Shown here: in pieces, positions 44,402 through 60,362 of the stretch
Numbering within the stretch: position 1 is the first letter of the stretch
Layout: the number at the start of each line of letters is the position of its first letter
DNA from: Pseudoclavibacter sp. AY1H1
Lineage (GTDB): Bacteria > Actinomycetota > Actinomycetes > Actinomycetales > Microbacteriaceae
Assembly (NCBI RefSeq): GCF_002931055.1
Contig: NZ_PSXX01000002.1
Location: 124,001-188,000 of the forward strand
Direction: 5' to 3'
DNA length: 64,000 bases
The notes under the pieces: generated by a model
Database searches by the model: none
Told to the model about the DNA's origin: nothing
Seen by the model: only the letters and a program-made list of their open reading frames with translations
Made by a program: the position numbers and the translations under genes

Positions 44402-45439
44402 TCAGAGGCGGACGAAGTAGTAGCTTCCGCCCGCGTCGAGGCCACCGAGCTCGACCATGCGGCCCTCGGTGGGAGCGTCGATCATCTGGCCGTTGCCGGC
44501 GTAGATGCCGACGTGGAAGTTCGGGAAGATGACGAGGTCGCCCGGCTGCGGGTCGGAGACGCGTGTGCCCGCCGCCGCCTGCGCGCTGACGCCGTGTGCC
44601 ACGTCGATGCCGTGGAGGCCGAACACGTACTTCACGAGCCCCGAGCAGTCGAAGCCGTCCGGGGTTGCCCCGCCGAAGACGTACGGCGAGACGCCGATGA
44701 ATTGCGATGCGGTCTCGACGACGCTTGAGCCGGCGACGCTCTGGCCTGCGGAGCTGCTGCCCGCGCCGCTCGTATCTGCGGCGGCGGCGTCTGCGGTGGC
44801 GTCGGCGGTGGGCTCTGGGGTCGCGACTGCGGCGACCTGGTCAGCGCTCATGCTCACGACCGCGGTCTCCGTGCGATCGGTCACGGTCTCCGGTGCTGCG
44901 ACGGCAGGGGTGGCATCGGCGACGGCGTCGGCGATGGCCGCTTCGACGCTCGCCTGCTCGGGCTGCGCGTCCGCGTTGGTGTCATCTGATGTGGCCACCG
45001 CGTTCGAGAGGCTGGCTTCGCTGGCGGGCGCGGGCGCTGCCATGGTGCTCGGCACAACGGCTCCGACCGCGGTGACCGCGGCGAGAGACGCGGCGGCGGC
45101 CAGGGTTCCGGCGACGCGGCGGCGGACGACGAGCTGCCTGGGGCGTGGAGCGCGAACCGTCATGGCACGCTCGCCGGCGAAGGCCGCGGGCACGCTGGGC
45201 GCCTCGGCTTCGGTCGCCGCGGTTGCGACGCGGTCTGCGGGGACGACCGAGAGGAGCGAGGTCATCGCGTTGCGCTCGATGCGGCCCGTCTCTTCGGGCT
45301 GCAGGGCGACGGGTGCTCGGGTGCCGGCGACGGAGGCGAGCGCGGCGGCGCTCAACGACTGCGTGGCGTCCGCGACTGGGCGCACACCGGTCTGGCGTTC
45401 GATGGCGCGGGCCTCGCGACGAGTCAGCGTGGTGCTCAT
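44402..45439 (-). CDS. NlpC/P60 (C40) cell-wall hydrolase, canonical active site
   Basis: 345 aa from ATG 45439-45437 with GAAGGA upstream. Residues 5-21 carry LTRREARAIERQTGVRP, shared with both downstream paralogues. A single hydrophobic segment lies late, at about 109-132, after a basic RRR stretch, so about 105 residues are predicted cytoplasmic. A low-complexity linker leads to the NlpC/P60 domain (240-345) with FDCSGLVKYVF (Cys265), NFHVGIY (His309) and a polar third residue after it. It should cleave D-gamma-Glu-diaminopimelate-type stem-peptide bonds. A phased repeat array lies upstream. Confidence 0.85.
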   Translation of the reverse strand: MSTTLTRREARAIERQTGVRPVADATQSLSAAALASVAGTRAPVALQPEETGRIERNAMTSLLSVVPADRVATAATEAEAPSVPAAFAGERAMTVRAPRPRQLVVRRRVAGTLAAAASLAAVTAVGAVVPSTMAAPAPASEASLSNAVATSDDTNADAQPEQASVEAAIADAVADATPAVAAPETVTDRTETAVVSMSADQVAAVATPEPTADATADAAAADTSGAGSSSAGQSVAGSSVVETASQFIGVSPYVFGGATPDGFDCSGLVKYVFGLHGIDVAHGVSAQAAAGTRVSDPQPGDLVIFPNFHVGIYAGNGQMIDAPTEGRMVELGGLDAGGSYYFVRL

Positions 45440-45493
45440 GGATTTCCTTCGGGTGGAGCTGAGCACCCGTTGGTGCCCTGGACTTCCACGAGC

Positions 45494-45562
45494 GTAACCG
45501 TTTATAACGAAAATGTCACGCTCAGGTCACAGTCAGGTCGCAAATCATCACATTTTGATCAC
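45494..45562 (-). promoter_or_regulatory. Phased GTnAC repeat array upstream of first NlpC/P60 gene
   Basis: Seven 5-mers at 10-11-base steps on the plus strand: GTAAC 45494, ATAAC 45504, GTCAC 45515, GTCAC 45526, GTCGC 45537, ATCAC 45547, ATCAC 45558. They lie 55-123 bases upstream of the gene's ATG, all on one face of the helix. Direct repeats with this period are bound by OmpR-family regulators. Confidence 0.65.
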
Positions 45563-45570
45563 GACGACAG

Positions 45571-45604
45571 AACGCCGCGCGCAGCAGAAGCTGCGCGCGG
45601 CGTT
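45571..45604 (-). terminator. Terminator of second NlpC/P60 gene
   Basis: Perfect 15-bp stem AACGCCGCGCGCAGC / GCTGCGCGCGGCGTT with loop AGAA, 31 bases past the stop at 45636 and directly beside the repeat array of the next gene. Confidence 0.75.
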
Positions 45605-45635
45605 GCCCACCGGAGTGAGCCGAAGCTCGAGATGT

Positions 45636-46802
45636 CTAATTGAAGGTGTAGTACACCGGGTTGCCCCACCAGATGGAGCGGTACTGGACGACCTTGCCGC
45701 CGTACCCGGGAGAGTCGATGACCATGCCGTCACCGGCGTAGATGCCGATGTGCGCGCCTGGCTGCACGACGAGGTCACCCGGCTGCGGGTTCGACGTCTG
45801 GCGTGCGCCCGCGATCTGGTTGCTGACGGACCCCGAAAGCGAGATGCCCTGCGTCGCGTAGACGGCCTTGGTCAGGTCGGTGCAGGCCGGGAAGTAGGAG
45901 CCGACGTAGCTGTGCGCCGCCGCGATGAGGCTCGAGGTGTCGACGTTGCCGGACCCACCACTCGGCGCGGCGGACCCCGAGGACGAGGACGTCTGGTTGC
46001 TCGAGCTGCCACCCGAGGACGTGTTTCCCGAGGTCGACGAGCTCGACTCTGCAGGAGCCTCGGTCTCCTCTGGCGTCGGAGTCGGTGTCGGCGTCTCAGC
46101 GACGGCAGCGAGATCGTCGCTGGAGATCGAGACGACCGTGGAGTCCGTGCGGTCGACGGCAACCTCTGGCGCAGCGACGAGGGCGACCTCCTCCACGGCG
46201 GCTTCCTCGGCAGCTGGGACTGGGTCCGATGTGGGTGCCGTCGCGGCTGCGTCTGGCGACGTGGCCGCAACCAGGTTGGCCTGGGACTGCACCTCGCTCT
46301 GCCCGTCTGCGACGGCGGCTGGGACGACCATCCCGGCAGTGGCTGCAGCTGCGACGGTTGCAGCGGCGGCGAAGCTGGCGGCGGTGCGCCGGCGGGTCCG
46401 TGCGACGAGGGCGGCCGGCTTCGCGGCGCGGATGCTCACGGAGCGCCCGGTGAAGGCCTCGGAGATGTCGGTGACGGGGGCGGGTTCCGAGTGCTCGATG
46501 AGGCCCTGGGATTCCGAGGTCGCATCTGCGGCGAGCTGCGAGAACGGCAGGACGGAAACGAGGGCACCTTGGCCGTTGCGCTCGATGCGAGCCGTGTCGT
46601 GCACCGAGGGCGCAGAGGCGACGGCAGGAGTGGAGGCGGCGGAGGCGATCTCGGCGACGGAGGCCTCGATGACGGGGGCAGAGACCCCGGCCACGGCCGA
46701 CGTGACGACGGGACGGACTCCGGTCTGCCGCTCGATCGCGCGGGCTTCGCGGCGGGTCAGCACGGTGGTGCTGTCCGTGCGCGGCGTGCTCGATGTGCTC
46801 AA
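45636..46802 (-). CDS. NlpC/P60-like wall hydrolase, divergent active-site loop
   Basis: 388 aa. A TTG start at 46802-46800 has GAGGAG 8 bases upstream; an ATG at 46868 lies too close to the array. LTRREARAIERQTGVRP is at 15-31, ARIERNGQGALVSVLP at 71-86, a hydrophobic segment at about 141-165, then a Ser/Thr/Pro/Gly-rich linker to about 285. In the C40 domain the usual GG..P..FDCSG loop is replaced by YFPACTDLTKAVY (Cys307); GAHIGIY keeps His351. Catalysis is therefore plausible but non-canonical. Paralogue of both neighbours. Confidence 0.75.
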   Translation of the reverse strand: MSTSSTPRTDSTTVLTRREARAIERQTGVRPVVTSAVAGVSAPVIEASVAEIASAASTPAVASAPSVHDTARIERNGQGALVSVLPFSQLAADATSESQGLIEHSEPAPVTDISEAFTGRSVSIRAAKPAALVARTRRRTAASFAAAATVAAAATAGMVVPAAVADGQSEVQSQANLVAATSPDAAATAPTSDPVPAAEEAAVEEVALVAAPEVAVDRTDSTVVSISSDDLAAVAETPTPTPTPEETEAPAESSSSTSGNTSSGGSSSNQTSSSSGSAAPSGGSGNVDTSSLIAAAHSYVGSYFPACTDLTKAVYATQGISLSGSVSNQIAGARQTSNPQPGDLVVQPGAHIGIYAGDGMVIDSPGYGGKVVQYRSIWWGNPVYYTFN

Positions 46803-46870
46803 GACTTCTCCTCGGTGCTTTCGAACACCGTTGGAACCGGCATCCTCGACGCGTCCGAGCCTACACAAAG

Positions 46871-46930
46871 GTCACGGAATTGTCACGGTCAGATCACAAA
46901 TGGATGCATGATCGGTCACGCGGGAGTAAC
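46871..46930 (-). promoter_or_regulatory. Phased GTnAC repeat array upstream of second NlpC/P60 gene
   Basis: Plus-strand 5-mers at exact 11-base steps: GTCAC 46871, GTCAC 46882, ATCAC 46893, a degenerate position at 46904, GTCAC 46915, GTAAC 46926. They are 69-128 bases upstream of the TTG start, matching the distance in the first paralogue. Confidence 0.65.
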
Positions 46931-46934
46931 GACG

Positions 46935-46964
46935 AAACGCGCCCAGCCGAAGCTGAGCGCGTTT
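46935..46964 (-). terminator. Terminator of third NlpC/P60 gene
   Basis: Stem AAACGCGC-CAGC / GCTG-GCGCGTTT with one mismatch and loop CGAA, 18 bases past the stop at 46983. Confidence 0.65.
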
Positions 46965-46982
46965 GCCGAGGTGGTTCGTTCC

Positions 46983-48095
46983 TTAGCGGAGCGTCACGTA
47001 GTAGGGGCTGCCCCACGAGATCGAGCGGTGCTGCACCGAGCGTCCGCCGTAGCCGGGGTCGTCGATGACCATGCCGTTGCCGGCGTAGATGCCGATGTGC
47101 TCGCCAGGCCAGACGACGAGGTCGCCGGGCTGCGGGTTGGAGGTGGGCGTGCCCATTGCCGCCTGAGCGGAGACGCCACGCGGCAGCGAGATGCCGACTG
47201 CTGCGTAGGCGGCCTGGGTGAGCAGGTCGCACGAGCCGAAGTAGCCGCCGACGTAGCTCATGGCCGCAGCGGAGACGCTCGACGAGTCGACGCTCTGTCC
47301 GCCGGTCGATGCGGTGTTGGTCTTGCCCGAGGTGCTGCCGCCCGTCGACGTCGTGCCGCCCGTGGAGGCGCTCGAGTCTGCCGTTGCGGTGGGCTCAGGC
47401 GTTGCGACGACCTCGGCGACCTGGTCGCTCGAGAGGGTCACGACGCTGGTCTCGGTGCGGTCGACCGCAACCTCTGGAGCGGCGACGAGGTCGACGGAGG
47501 CCTGCTCGACAACTTCTTCTGCCGGAGCCTCAGCGGTTGCGTCGGCCTCAGCCGTCGGTGCCTCGGTCTCGACCGTGGTGGCGGCGAGGAGGTTGGCCTG
47601 CGCCTGGCTGGCGTTGTTGCCATCGGCGACTGCCGCTGGCACGACGACGCCTGCCGTGGCGATGGCCGCGACGGTTGCTGCAGCGGCGAAGCCACCAGCC
47701 GTGCGGCGACGCTGACGAGCGACGAGCGACGCCGGCTTCGCAGCGCGGATGCTCACGGAGCGGCCCGTGAACGCCTCGGGGATGTCGATGACCTCTGCGA
47801 GCTGCTCGACGGCTTCGTCGCCGGCGACCTGCGGGAGCGCAGTGGTCGTGGGGAGCACCGACACGAGTGCGCCGAGCTCGTTGCGCTGGATGTGCGCAGT
47901 GTCGTGCACGAAGGATGCTGAAGCAGAGGGCGTCGGCACGGATGCCGAGTTGATCTCTGCGACCGAAGCCTCGATCACCGGCGCGGACACACCCGCGACA
48001 CCGACAGTCGCCACTGGGCGCTGGCCCGTGCGGCGCTCGATCTCACGAGCCTGGCGTCGCGTCAGCGGTGCCGTGGCGTTCGTCAAGTTTTCCAA
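46983..48095 (-). CDS. NlpC/P60-like wall hydrolase, third paralogue
   Basis: 370 aa. TTG at 48095-48093 has GGAGG 7 bases upstream and yields an N-terminus (LENLTNATAPLTRRQAREIERRTGQRP) equivalent to the other two; a second TTG three codons on is an alternative. IQRNELGALVSVLP (69-82) and the hydrophobic segment (about 132-156) are conserved. The C40 domain has YVGGYFGSCDLLTQAAY (Cys289) and GEHIGIY (His333), again lacking the DCSG loop. It is 65-70 percent similar by eye to the second copy over the C-terminal domain. A long structured leader precedes it. Confidence 0.75.
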   Translation of the reverse strand: MENLTNATAPLTRRQAREIERRTGQRPVATVGVAGVSAPVIEASVAEINSASVPTPSASASFVHDTAHIQRNELGALVSVLPTTTALPQVAGDEAVEQLAEVIDIPEAFTGRSVSIRAAKPASLVARQRRRTAGGFAAAATVAAIATAGVVVPAAVADGNNASQAQANLLAATTVETEAPTAEADATAEAPAEEVVEQASVDLVAAPEVAVDRTETSVVTLSSDQVAEVVATPEPTATADSSASTGGTTSTGGSTSGKTNTASTGGQSVDSSSVSAAAMSYVGGYFGSCDLLTQAAYAAVGISLPRGVSAQAAMGTPTSNPQPGDLVVWPGEHIGIYAGNGMVIDDPGYGGRSVQHRSISWGSPYYVTLR

Positions 48096-48215
48096 GTCGT
48101 TCCTCCAGCGCCTGACTCCTGGGAGCCGATCCCGCTCTTGCCTGTTACCAGGGGGAGCTAGGTCGAGGAGCGGGATACGGCGCCTCGGCCTGCCAGCTAT
48201 GCAGACTGCATAGCT
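48096..48215 (-). promoter_or_regulatory. Structured 5' leader of third NlpC/P60 gene
   Basis: On the minus strand the leader contains a perfect 21-base palindrome AGCTATGCAG-A-CTGCATAGCT (48195-48215) and a long stem ATCCCGCTC / GAGCGGGAT enclosing CCTG-GTAA-CAGG, a hairpin with a GNRA tetraloop. A GGCTCC / GGAGTC hairpin follows, just before the ribosome-binding site. Such a folded leader before a wall hydrolase recalls c-di-AMP (ydaO) riboswitches, but I do not see the conserved core clearly. Confidence 0.35.
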
Positions 48216-48252
48216 CATGACTCGGACAACACTAGTGGAAAAGCTGTGAATT

Positions 48253-48290
48253 GTCACGCTTCGGTGTCAGAACCCTAACGCCGAGGTAAC
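48253..48290 (-). promoter_or_regulatory. Phased GTnAC repeat array upstream of third NlpC/P60 gene
   Basis: Plus-strand 5-mers at exact 11-base steps: GTCAC 48253, GTGTC 48264 (weak), CTAAC 48275, GTAAC 48286. They lie 158-195 bases upstream of the TTG start, further than in the other two genes, consistent with the longer leader. Confidence 0.55.
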
Positions 48291-48371: not shown

Positions 48372-49109
48372 TCAGCCTAGCGCACCTTCGGGGCTCAGGA
48401 TCGCATCCACGTACACGTGCTCGGCGGTTTCGAGCGAGACCTCGACGCCGATGCCGCCAGAAGCAGGCAGCAGGCCGATCCACGCACCACGGCGCTGCAG
48501 GGTGACCTCGGTGCCGGGAAGCACGCCAGCCTCGCGCAGAAGCGTGAGCGTCTGGAGGTCGGACTGGACGGGCTCGCCGAGGCGACGCACCTTCGCGAGC
48601 ACGGGCTCCGTGGAGGTGGCTCCGCGCGCAGACTCCTCGAGGAGCGCCGAGACGCTCACGACGCCGGCGAGGAACTCCTCGGCAGGCTCGGCGCCGAACT
48701 CGACGAGTCCCGGAATCGGGGTGCCGTACGGCGATTCGCTGGGGCGACCGAGCATCTCGAAGATCCGCTGCTCGGCCTCGTCGCTCATGACGTGCTCCCA
48801 GCGGCAGGCCTCTTCGTGCACCTGGGCGAGGTCGAGGCCGATGACATTGGCGAGGAGACCCTCGGCGATCCGGTGCTTGCGCAGCACGCGCGTCGCCTTG
48901 GCACGCCCGTCGGTCGTCAGCACGAGTCTGCGGTCACCGGCGACCGAGACGAGTCCGTCGCGCTCCATGCGCGCGATCGTCTGCGACACCGTGGGACCCG
49001 AGTGCCCGAGTCGCTCGGAGATGCGAGCCCGAAGCGGGGTGATGCCCTCTTCCTCGAGGTCGAGAATGGTGCGGAGATACATCTCCGTGGTGTCCACCAG
49101 ATTGGTCAC
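48372..49109 (-). CDS. DtxR/MntR-family metal-dependent regulator
   Basis: 245 aa from GTG 49109-49107; the longer frame lacks family similarity before VTNLVDTTEMYLRTILDLEEEG. Winged helix RARISERLGHSGPTVSQTIARMERDGLVSV, then the dimerisation/metal domain HRIAEGLLANVIGLDLAQVHEEACRWEHVMSDEAEQRI, which has the Cys, Glu and His ligands of DtxR/IdeR. A C-terminal SH3-like FeoA domain ends it. It represses genes when Fe(II) or Mn(II) is bound. The target genes cannot be read, though the iron-type transporter at 26.8-32.8 kb is a candidate. Confidence 0.85.
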   Translation of the reverse strand: MTNLVDTTEMYLRTILDLEEEGITPLRARISERLGHSGPTVSQTIARMERDGLVSVAGDRRLVLTTDGRAKATRVLRKHRIAEGLLANVIGLDLAQVHEEACRWEHVMSDEAEQRIFEMLGRPSESPYGTPIPGLVEFGAEPAEEFLAGVVSVSALLEESARGATSTEPVLAKVRRLGEPVQSDLQTLTLLREAGVLPGTEVTLQRRGAWIGLLPASGGIGVEVSLETAEHVYVDAILSPEGALG

Positions 49110-49176
49110 GCCCCGCCACCCTCCGTTGCATTGGTCCGCCAAGCCTAGCGGCGAGCGAGCCCGCTTGCGCGCATAG

Positions 49177-50301
<1,125 letters not shown>

Positions 50302-57888: not shown

Positions 57889-58587
57889 ATGACTGATGGC
57901 CCCAAGATTCTCGTTGTTGACGACGAGCCAAACATCCGCGAACTCCTGTCGACCAGCCTGCGCTTCGCAGGGTTCATGGTGCGTGCCGTCGGCAACGGCG
58001 CCGCCGCGATCTCCGCTGTCATCGAGGAGGAGCCCGACCTCATCGTCCTGGACGTCATGCTCCCCGACATGAACGGCTTCGGCGTCACGAAGCGCCTGCG
58101 CGCGTCTGGCTACACGAGCCCCATCCTGTTCCTGACCGCCAAGGACGACACCGACGACAAGATCGAGGGCCTCAACGCGGGTGGCGACGACTACGTCACC
58201 AAGCCGTTCAGCCTCGACGAGATCGTCGCCCGCATCAAGGCCATCCTCCGCCGCACCATGCAGGCCGAGGAAGAGGCGGTCATCCGCACTGGCGAGCTCA
58301 CGATGGACCAGGACACCCACGAGGTGTTCATCGGCGACGAGCCGATCGAGCTCTCCCCCACCGAGTTCAAGCTCCTTCGCTACCTCATGCTCAACCCGAA
58401 CCGCGTGCTCTCGAAGGCGCAGATCCTCGACCACGTCTGGGAGTACGACTTCAACGGTGACGCCGGCATCGTCGAGTCCTATATCTCCTACCTGCGCCGC
58501 AAGCTCGACCAGTTCACCGAGGAGCCGCTCATCCAGACCAAGCGCGGCTTCGGCTACATGCTGAAGGTCTCCGGGGCCAAGGCATAG
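57889..58587 (+). CDS. PhoP-like OmpR-family response regulator
   Basis: 232 aa. Receiver domain with Asp11-Asp12, phosphoacceptor Asp55 (LIVLDVMLPD), a Thr in LTAKDD and Lys in VTKPFSLDE. C-terminal winged helix ELSPTEFKLLRYLMLNPNRVLSKAQILDHVWEYDF, then GIVESYISYLRRKLD and GFGYML. The GGDDYVTKPFSL and WEYDFNGDAG stretches closely follow mycobacterial PhoP by memory. It controls unknown genes together with the sensor kinase encoded 38 bases downstream. Confidence 0.9.
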   Translation: MTDGPKILVVDDEPNIRELLSTSLRFAGFMVRAVGNGAAAISAVIEEEPDLIVLDVMLPDMNGFGVTKRLRASGYTSPILFLTAKDDTDDKIEGLNAGGDDYVTKPFSLDEIVARIKAILRRTMQAEEEAVIRTGELTMDQDTHEVFIGDEPIELSPTEFKLLRYLMLNPNRVLSKAQILDHVWEYDFNGDAGIVESYISYLRRKLDQFTEEPLIQTKRGFGYMLKVSGAKA

Positions 58588-58625: not shown

Positions 58626-60362
58626 GTGCCGTTCAAGGCATGGCGCTGGGATCGGCTCTCACTCCGCAACAAGCTGACGATCGTCAACATCACGCTGCTG
58701 ACGTTCGGTATCGTCGTCGCCGGAATCGGCACGACGCTGCTGCTGCGGCCGACGCTCGTCTCGCAGACCGACTCACAGCTGAGCGTGTACGCGAGTGACC
58801 CCACCCAGTTCCTCGCCGCCGACCCCTCGTCGAGGCTCATCACCTACGACGCCATCCGCATCGCCCCGTCCACGATCTACGTGGCCGTCCTCGATGCTGA
58901 CGGCCAGGTCGTCGTCGACAACTGGGGACAGTGGCAGCGGCCGCAGGCGATCGCGCCCGAGGTGCCAGCAGACGCCGCGGTCCGCGGCAGCCAGAGCCTC
59001 TTCGACATGGAGGACCCGCTCGGGGCGACCTGGCGGACCATCACCGTGCCGGAGGGAGAGTACGCCGCCGATCAGGTGCGCGGCACGCTGCTCATCGCGG
59101 CCCCGCTGACGAGCGTCAACGCGACGATGGTGAACTTCCTGGCCATCTTCTTCGGCTTCGGGCTGACGGTCGTGATCTTCGGCGCGGCCCTCACGAGAGT
59201 CCTCGTCTCCGCGACGCTGCTCCCCCTGAGGCAGGTCGAGGCCACGGCCATGCAGTTCGCCTCTGGCGACTACTCCCAGCGCCTGCCCGCCGGCACCCCG
59301 AACACCGAGGTGGGGCGCCTCTCCCGGTCGCTCAACACCATGCTCGTCCGCATCGATCACGCCTTCGACGAGCGGACGCGCACCATCGCGCAGATGCGTC
59401 GTTTCGTCGGCGACGCCAGCCACGAGCTGCGCACGCCGCTCGTCACGGTCCGCGGCTACGCCGAGCTCTACCGCATGGGTGCCCTCAACGACCCCGAGAA
59501 GGTCGGCCAGGCGATGGAGCGGATCGAGAAGGAGGCGCTCCGCATGGGGGGCCTCGTCGAGGACCTCCTGCAGCTCGCTCGACTCGACGAGACGCGCGAG
59601 CTCGTCAAGGACGTCATCGACCTCGAGCCGATTGCTGAGGACGCGGCGATGGATGCGCACGCGACCGCCAAGGATCGCGTCGTGCGGGCTCTCCCCGTGA
59701 ACATCATCCAGGAGACCCGCGACGAGGCGGAGCCCCACGGGTCCGAGACGACCGGCGAGCTGCCTGCCGCCGTCGAGGCGGACATCGTCCCGGCCGACGA
59801 GTCGGCCAGCGCTCCGGAAGGTGCGGCCGCGAAGCGCGCGCTGTGGCGACGGCGTTCGCTGCCGCGCCCGGCGCTGCGAGGCTTCCCCATCAGGCGCAAG
59901 GGGGCCGAGCCGAGTGGGATCGAGGCCGCCGACTCCGACGAGGACCTCGGAGATGTGCCCGCCATGGTGCACGCGAACGAGGACAAGGTCAGGCAGGCGA
60001 TCTCGAACCTGCTCGGCAACGCCATGCGGTACACGCCGGAGGGGTCGCCCCTCGAGGTGGGCGTGACGGTGGATCTGCAGAACCAGCTCGCCATCGTCGA
60101 CATCATCGACCACGGTGAGGGCATCCCCCCGCAGATCAGGCAGAAGATCTTCGAGCGGTTCTGGCGCGCAGACACCTCCCGCGCACGCGAGACCGGCGGT
60201 TCCGGGCTCGGCCTCTCGATCGTCTCGGCGATCATGAAGGCGCACGATGGCGAGGTCGACGTGCTCGAGACCCCCGGCGGCGGGGCGACGTTCCGCCTCA
60301 AGTTCCCGCTGCTCATGTCCGCGCCTGTGGACAGCGCTCTCTCCACAGCCCCGAACAGCTGA
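58626..60362 (+). CDS. Sensor histidine kinase partner
   Basis: 578 aa with GTG start and GGGGAAG upstream. TM1 at about 17-40, an extracytoplasmic sensor (41-166), TM2 at 168-192, a HAMP linker, HisKA with His266 (DASHELRTPLV), and an HATPase with N-box NLLGNAMRY (461-469), G1 DHGEGIP and G2 GGSGLGLSIV. Between HisKA and HATPase lies an insertion of about 80 residues (363-445), acidic then basic, absent from most kinases. Encoded with the PhoP-like regulator. Confidence 0.9.
   Translation: MPFKAWRWDRLSLRNKLTIVNITLLTFGIVVAGIGTTLLLRPTLVSQTDSQLSVYASDPTQFLAADPSSRLITYDAIRIAPSTIYVAVLDADGQVVVDNWGQWQRPQAIAPEVPADAAVRGSQSLFDMEDPLGATWRTITVPEGEYAADQVRGTLLIAAPLTSVNATMVNFLAIFFGFGLTVVIFGAALTRVLVSATLLPLRQVEATAMQFASGDYSQRLPAGTPNTEVGRLSRSLNTMLVRIDHAFDERTRTIAQMRRFVGDASHELRTPLVTVRGYAELYRMGALNDPEKVGQAMERIEKEALRMGGLVEDLLQLARLDETRELVKDVIDLEPIAEDAAMDAHATAKDRVVRALPVNIIQETRDEAEPHGSETTGELPAAVEADIVPADESASAPEGAAAKRALWRRRSLPRPALRGFPIRRKGAEPSGIEAADSDEDLGDVPAMVHANEDKVRQAISNLLGNAMRYTPEGSPLEVGVTVDLQNQLAIVDIIDHGEGIPPQIRQKIFERFWRADTSRARETGGSGLGLSIVSAIMKAHDGEVDVLETPGGGATFRLKFPLLMSAPVDSALSTAPNS

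Follow-up and report, generated by a model that had tools for sequence, protein, structure and literature searches.

Tandem GTnAC arrays over the probable promoters of three NlpC/P60 wall hydrolase genes in Pseudoclavibacter sp. AY1H1 as predicted operators of MtrA

The window analysed here is a stretch of 64,000 nucleotides from the 4.2-Mb genome of Pseudoclavibacter sp. AY1H1 (contig NZ_PSXX01000002.1, positions 124,001 to 188,000), and all coordinates refer to it unless stated otherwise. Three paralogous NlpC/P60 wall hydrolase genes lie in tandem on its minus strand, and each is preceded by an array of GTnAC direct repeats. Gene 1 (44402..45439) is an open reading frame with a probable ATG start at 45439, gene 2 (45636..46802) has a probable TTG start at 46802 behind GAGGAG, and gene 3 (46983..48095) has a probable TTG start at 48095 behind GGAGGA; they match Pfam PF00877 with E-values of 8.2e-20, 1.5e-07 and 7.3e-10, respectively. 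In a whole-genome domain search, these genes were the only NlpC/P60 matches at E<=0.001. Gene 2 shares 77-80% identity with its counterparts in three close named relatives, all belonging to Pseudoclavibacter (Microbacteriaceae).

A first-pass annotation of this DNA had claimed direct repeats of GTnAC at 10-11-base steps before each paralogue, seven at 45494-45562, five at 46871-46930 and three to four at 48253-48290. Positions and shuffle tests agree with this claim and confirm that the arrays are real, with seven, five and four half-sites. In array 1, the half-sites start at 45494, 45504, 45515, 45526, 45537, 45547 and 45558 (steps 10-11-11-11-10-11); three of them are exact GTnAC and the other four differ by one base. 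The half-sites of array 2, four of the five being exact, start at 46871, 46882, 46893, 46915 and 46926 and keep a single 11-base register in which position 46904 is missing. The four half-sites of array 3 (48253, 48264, 48275 and 48286; two exact, two one-base variants) follow each other at steps of exactly 11 bases. The exact spacing that had been ascribed to both arrays therefore holds for array 3, and for array 2 only if the skip at 46904 is allowed. The GTnAC core is palindromic and cannot by itself indicate a strand; however, the flanks (CGTGAC) suggest that the arrays are to be read with the genes, on the minus strand.

When steps of 10 or 11 were admitted, array 1 was the best chain of the whole window, with a score of 10 against a maximum of 8 in 100 dinucleotide shuffles. 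With step 11 only, the four best GTnAC chains of the window all fell in the upstream regions of the three hydrolase genes. Taken singly, their scores (6, 6, 5 and 4) do not stand out for 64 kb, for which the shuffle maximum was 3 to 6, and the evidence therefore lies in the place of the chains together. In a local test with 5000 dinucleotide shuffles of each intergenic region, chains scoring as well as those of arrays 1, 2 and 3 arose 0, 6 and 0 times with step 11, and 0, 15 and 2 times with steps 10/11. In addition, the window holds three copies of the exact pair GTnAC-N6-GTnAC, always within arrays 1 and 2, a number that none of 100 shuffles attained.

In the direction of the genes, every array shows GTGACA followed by 17 bases and TAnnnT, an arrangement that we infer to be a promoter. 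The putative -10 elements are TACGCT (45496-45491), TAGGCT (46863-46858) and TAGTGT (48234-48229), and the corresponding GTGACA hexamers lie at 45519-45514, 46886-46881 and 48257-48252, so that arrays and promoters together occupy 45491..45562, 46858..46930 and 48229..48290 of the minus strand. The distance of 17 bases agrees with the roughly 17 bases between sigma-A promoter hexamers, the hexamers themselves being predictions. Accordingly placed, the arrays would overlie sigma-A-like promoters, with one half-site of each being the probable -35 element. All three arrays run over the -35; arrays 1 and 2 reach the -35/-10 spacer, and array 1 reaches the -10. With the first base of GTGACA taken as 0, the half-sites of array 1 stand at -43, -32, -22, -11, 0, +11 (in the spacer) and +21 (on the -10). 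Those of array 2 stand at -44, -33, -11, 0 and +11, with -22 missing and the spacer half-site GTGAC at 46875-46871, and those of array 3 at -33 (GTTAC), -22 (GTTAG), -11 (GACAC) and 0, without a spacer site.

The layout was compared in ten genomes of the genus including that of AY1H1, each with at least two such hydrolase genes in a row and one of them (G006) fragmentary. GTGAC[AT]-N17-T[AC]nnnT was found in all 28 promoters of the tandem hydrolase genes; the -10 is TAnnnT in 27 and TCnnnT in one, and the pattern had been widened to T[AC]nnnT to take in this 28th promoter. The +11 half-site is present with at most one mismatch in 20 of the 28. The half-sites of gene 3 are identical in five close genomes. 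The row before gene 1 counts seven half-sites here; of four close relatives, G007 also has seven, but gapped, two have six and one has four, whereas the register stays. Thus, of the two features whose loss in close relatives would have spoken against the first-pass annotation, phasing is kept and the number of repeats is not. In more distant congeners, NlpC/P60 is replaced by an M23 domain in the third gene (two cases) or by a CHAP domain in the second (one case), and the promoter layout before these paralogues is the same as before the NlpC/P60 genes. As a separate observation, the hydrolases of 44402-48095 and those of four further loci (L049-L052) have a long conserved N-terminal part (LTRREAREIERRTGxRP) ahead of a probable export signal, and the catalytic domain that follows is NlpC/P60, M23 or CHAP, depending on the congener.

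Of 150 Microbacteriaceae genomes searched with a model of the hydrolase family, 114 had homologues. A subset of these, 61 upstream regions from 55 other genera (loci L074-L098 and L099-L134), was used as an out-of-genus test set for the pattern GTGAC[AT]-N17-TAnnnT, which had been fixed on the ten genus genomes beforehand. Four loci with high-scoring homologues from genus g28 (L072, L073, L135 and L136) stand outside this set, and by eye L072 and L073 carry the promoter layout. The pattern was present in 29 of the 61 regions, against a shuffle mean of 0.06, and in none at spacers of 13-16 or 18-21 bases; reversed and reverse-complemented controls gave matches in none of the 61. Control DNA of 172,818 bases, taken on both strands and with some loci overlapping, likewise held no GTGAC[AT]-N17 match. 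Other first bases of the -35 were found as ATGAC[AT] (seven), CTGAC[AT] (one) and TTGAC[AT] (none), all matches again at 17. In the promoters found, the -35 therefore begins almost always with a purine, as the half-site does.

Further half-sites recur at fixed places around this -35. In a profile anchored on a single promoter per genus (25 genera), exact GTnAC stands at -33/-32 in 14 genera and at +11 in eight, the background mean being 0.34 per offset. The pair GTTAC-N6-GTTA occurs in 12 of the 61 regions, always 32-33 bases upstream (at -33 or -32). Among the half-sites listed, 17 of 20 at -33/-32 are GTTAC, and the 11 at +11 include six GTAAC, two GTTAC and one GTGAC. Array 3 is closest to the layout of the other genera, and the arrays of genes 1 and 2 look like expansions of it.

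We predict that the arrays are tandem operators for the response regulator MtrA laid over sigma-A-like hydrolase promoters, and give this reading a probability of about 0.63. Binding by MtrA is suggested by the motif, the step, the target class and the recognition helix of the regulator. GTnAC direct repeats at 11 bases, an MtrA with a conserved helix and a known class of target, all of them marks of an MtrA-type promoter, are found together here. The MtrA of AY1H1 aligns best to that of Mycobacterium tuberculosis and, in a comparison made for this genome, is identical to it through TRLVNVHVQRLRAKVE, which we take to be the recognition helix. MtrA scores above the NCBIfam cut-off in 19 of 20 genomes, that of AY1H1 included, and passes the family cut-off in all 25 motif-bearing genomes of other genera. 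The motifs excerpted from published work are cG[T/A]nA[C/T]c, repeated with 4 bases between, in M. tuberculosis, KTRACC-N5-GTKACN in Streptomyces and [A/G]TAACAAT, repeated with 3 bases between, in Corynebacterium, and the step is 11 bases in each case. In Corynebacterium glutamicum, mepA and nlpC are repressed by MtrA; it is described as activating ripAB in mycobacteria (PMC12338722, a preprint), and a site at -34 of the Streptomyces venezuelae mtrA promoter has been interpreted as activating (PMC13189361). The first-pass annotation had already read the arrays as operators of an OmpR-family regulator such as MtrA. Motif, step, target class and recognition helix support this in part, while MtrA binding stays a prediction and the use of one half-site as the -35 had been missed.

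The arrays resemble MtrA operators of Mycobacterium, Corynebacterium and Streptomyces in their GTnAC-type half-sites, direct repetition, 11-base step and hydrolase targets (ripAB, mepA, nlpC). However, the published operators, as far as the excerpted descriptions go, consist of pairs or of two or more motifs per promoter, whereas four to seven half-sites in one register are present here, of which one constantly takes the place of the probable -35 and some lie within the spacer. A comparably long array of 11-base half-sites is formed by the GlnR boxes at amtB of Streptomyces coelicolor, although amtB is a nitrogen gene and its six half-sites were called the largest GlnR number in 2018 (PMC5826061, in part). 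The earlier remark that seven tandem half-sites are unusually many is thus fair, but they are not without parallel. According to a review, the structure of GlnR with RNA polymerase has four DNA-binding domains arranged head to tail. At Caulobacter pilA, a CtrA site overlapping the -35 drives the promoter, and further upstream CtrA sites lower and delay expression (PMC11264516); regulator and phylum are different there, and the abstract mentions no 11-base tandem register.

Several points weigh against MtrA as the regulator, or against the arrays as operators. The MtrA motif reported for Dietzia is TCG-rich and 21 bases long (PMC9599347, in part), the S. venezuelae half-site is given as 7 bases with only T1 and C4 invariant (PMC13189361, in part), and a study of MtrA sites in M. 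tuberculosis did not find a clear affinity motif. A paired site (7/8 core bases) was not found before the mtrA gene of AY1H1 or before four other mtrA genes. In the out-of-genus set, 25 of the 61 regions are without the [A/G]TGAC[AT]-N17 layout, cut loci and wrong frames having been excluded as the cause, and TTGAC[AT]-N17 is also missing from the 172,818 bases of control DNA, so that its absence from the 61 regions is by itself weak evidence. The periodogram of the anchored profile is unclean, with period 7 as strong as 10.5 and period 11 weaker, although among 2000 random register shifts only 5 attained the power at period 11. Conservation in the five close genomes does not clearly set half-site columns above linkers, conserved columns numbering 13/28 v 19/45 for gene 1, 23/28 v 26/45 for gene 2 and 23/28 v 38/45 for gene 3. 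A strict composite with the spacer site and at most one mismatch occurs in the genome only before gene 2 (exact) and gene 1 (one mismatch), the control giving 0. Moreover, all 25 motif-bearing genomes encode both MtrA and PhoP, so co-occurrence cannot separate the two, and in these genomes phoP lies on the same contig as the hydrolase gene, within about 22 kb.

The window itself encodes a PhoP-type response regulator (57889..58587, plus strand), adjoined by a histidine kinase gene (58626-60362) with kinase domains. The first-pass annotation had noted a PhoP-like regulator at 57889, and it is indeed a PhoP orthologue whose nearest solved structure is M. tuberculosis PhoP (E=4.4e-78). Mycobacterial PhoP repeats have a TCAC-type consensus, and the core pair in Pseudoclavibacter is often GTGAC/GTGAT, which reads TCAC on the other strand and resembles them. 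PhoP is also an OmpR-family regulator acting through direct repeats, and it is present at 81-89% identity in each of the 25 genomes. Nevertheless, we consider it unlikely that this PhoP, encoded near the hydrolase genes, binds the arrays at their roughly 11-base tandem repeats. The half-site sequence differs: across half-sites and genera the third base varies, mostly as GTTAC at -33/-32 and GTAAC at +11, so that GTnAC is kept and TCAC is not. Published PhoP half-sites (ACKKKYARC; PMC3413638, in part) match GTTACC poorly, and the 400 bases upstream of the phoP gene of AY1H1 hold no paired site. Autoregulation was dropped as a means of discriminating between MtrA and PhoP, paired sites being found before neither mtrA (this genome and four others) nor this phoP. 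MtrA is favoured because of the variable third base (GTTAC, GTAAC, GTGAC) and the target class.

The arrays might also be bound by a different member of the OmpR family whose operator is of the GTnAC type, such as GlnR or an unnamed regulator, possibly in competition with MtrA. GlnR boxes are 11-base direct repeats of the form GTnAC-n6-GTnAC in S. venezuelae, with up to six half-sites at amtB (PMC5826061, in part), MtrA and GlnR are described as acting on shared genes in Streptomyces (PMC10704036), and a search of the AY1H1 genome with the MtrA model gave 34 matches at E<=0.001, that is, many related regulators. GlnR, however, is described for nitrogen genes, whereas the genes behind the arrays are wall hydrolases, a known MtrA target class, and this explanation seems likewise improbable. 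Very unlikely is a functional promoter alone, with GTGACA as a lineage-specific -35 and the other GTnAC as leftovers of promoter duplication before the paralogues: the paralogy of the genes, the varying half-site number in close relatives, the restriction of the strict composite to the hydrolase cluster and the linkers, whose conservation is close to that of the half-sites in two arrays out of three, are in its favour, but the GTTAC-N6-GTTA pair fixed at -33/-32 in 12 of 61 regions and the exact GTnAC at +11 in eight of 25 genera are left unexplained.

If MtrA is the regulator, its phosphorylated form would bind head to tail at 11-base steps along a single helix face. Sigma would share the half-site at the -35, GTGACA replacing TTGACA, and we propose that such a weakened -35 either requires bound MtrA or competes with it. 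The form before gene 3 (-33, -22, a weak -11 and the -35) would most likely be activating, with two dimers setting the last protomer at the -35; likewise, the shared form, in which a half-site on the -35 is preceded by a pair lying two to three turns further upstream, fits activation by head-to-tail dimers such as those described for GlnR with RNA polymerase. The added spacer half-sites of genes 1 and 2, and that on the -10 of gene 1, may limit output at high levels of phosphorylated MtrA, which might give a graded or biphasic response. In C. glutamicum, as summarised in a review, MtrA sites upstream of the -35 activate and those near the -10 repress. The predicted sign is thus activation for the shared form and a ceiling for the expanded ones, and hydrolase output is probably set through the arrays by a regulator of wall stress, most likely MtrA.

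A broader reading is possible, although we hold it only tentatively: Microbacteriaceae may have a composite promoter whose -35 is an MtrA half-site at invariant spacing and whose array grows and shrinks as a rheostat, the promoter and an export module being kept while NlpC/P60, M23 and CHAP domains are exchanged, which would amount to a regulated slot that takes different wall hydrolases. Already known are MtrA, GTnAC repeats, the targeting of wall hydrolases and regulator sites over the -35. As far as our searches show, the recurrent use of a half-site as the -35 across the family, the variable arrays around it and the persistence of this use despite the change of catalytic domain are new; a literature search combining Microbacteriaceae, MtrA and NlpC gave no match, and judged from search listings no work on such arrays in Microbacteriaceae was found. 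To our knowledge, there is no settled reason why MtrA, as reported, represses hydrolases in Corynebacterium and activates them in mycobacteria. With a regulator site fixed on the -35 and natural half-site variants, a rule linking site position and number to activation or repression becomes testable, and Pseudoclavibacter and related actinobacteria provide the setting.

Motif searches were extended to the genome and beyond. Three GTnAC at 11-base steps with at most two mismatches occur in at least 75 places of the genome, against 26 for the reversed control, each match appearing on both strands since the pattern is palindromic; the excess was too mixed to name targets of a genome-wide regulon among the matches listed. 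In five genus genomes, GTTACCNNNNCGTTA had 12 matches against two in the reversed control. Two of them are in the genome of AY1H1, one before gene 3 and one between the genes of a betaine/proline-type ABC ATPase and a CPBP protease. The latter (positions 1501-1515 of locus L181; G000:C10:10741-10755) is the only other GTTACC-N4-CGTTA site in this genome, and it is identical in five genus genomes including this one while its flanks drift; it lies nearer the CPBP-protease gene and is therefore not used as proof of an osmotic MtrA target. Class-wide, the composite with an exact spacer site had nine matches in 246 genomes against ten for the reversed control, three of them in 12 Microbacteriaceae (control 0) and six in 234 others, which is the chance level outside Microbacteriaceae. 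The two further ones among these Microbacteriaceae matches precede genes with M23-peptidase-like ends (HLHFEV, by reading the sequence; presumably a mark of M23 peptidases).

In 26 genomes, GTTACCNNTNCGTTA gave 40 matches, distributed over 19 genomes, and none in the reversed control; besides the hydrolase genes, a MarR-like gene, recognised by reading the sequence, is a recurrent neighbour. Two opposed copies of GTTACC-N5-GTTAT, 23 bases apart, were seen in three genomes (L147, L151 and L157, near position 1500), and single copies with a similar conserved leader stand before a MarR-like gene in several other genera. A riboswitch leader before the NlpC/P60 genes, for example of the c-di-AMP type, was rejected, as an Rfam search of the window returned no family at its gathering score. 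Elsewhere in the genome, GTGAC and GTTAC stand 11 bases from each other upstream of an M23 gene (L062, on G000:C20) whose product has a TRRELREAER stretch at the N terminus. The gene next upstream of the hydrolase cluster, on the same strand (48372-49217), encodes a DtxR-type iron regulator, scoring 276.9 bits against a cut-off of 290.

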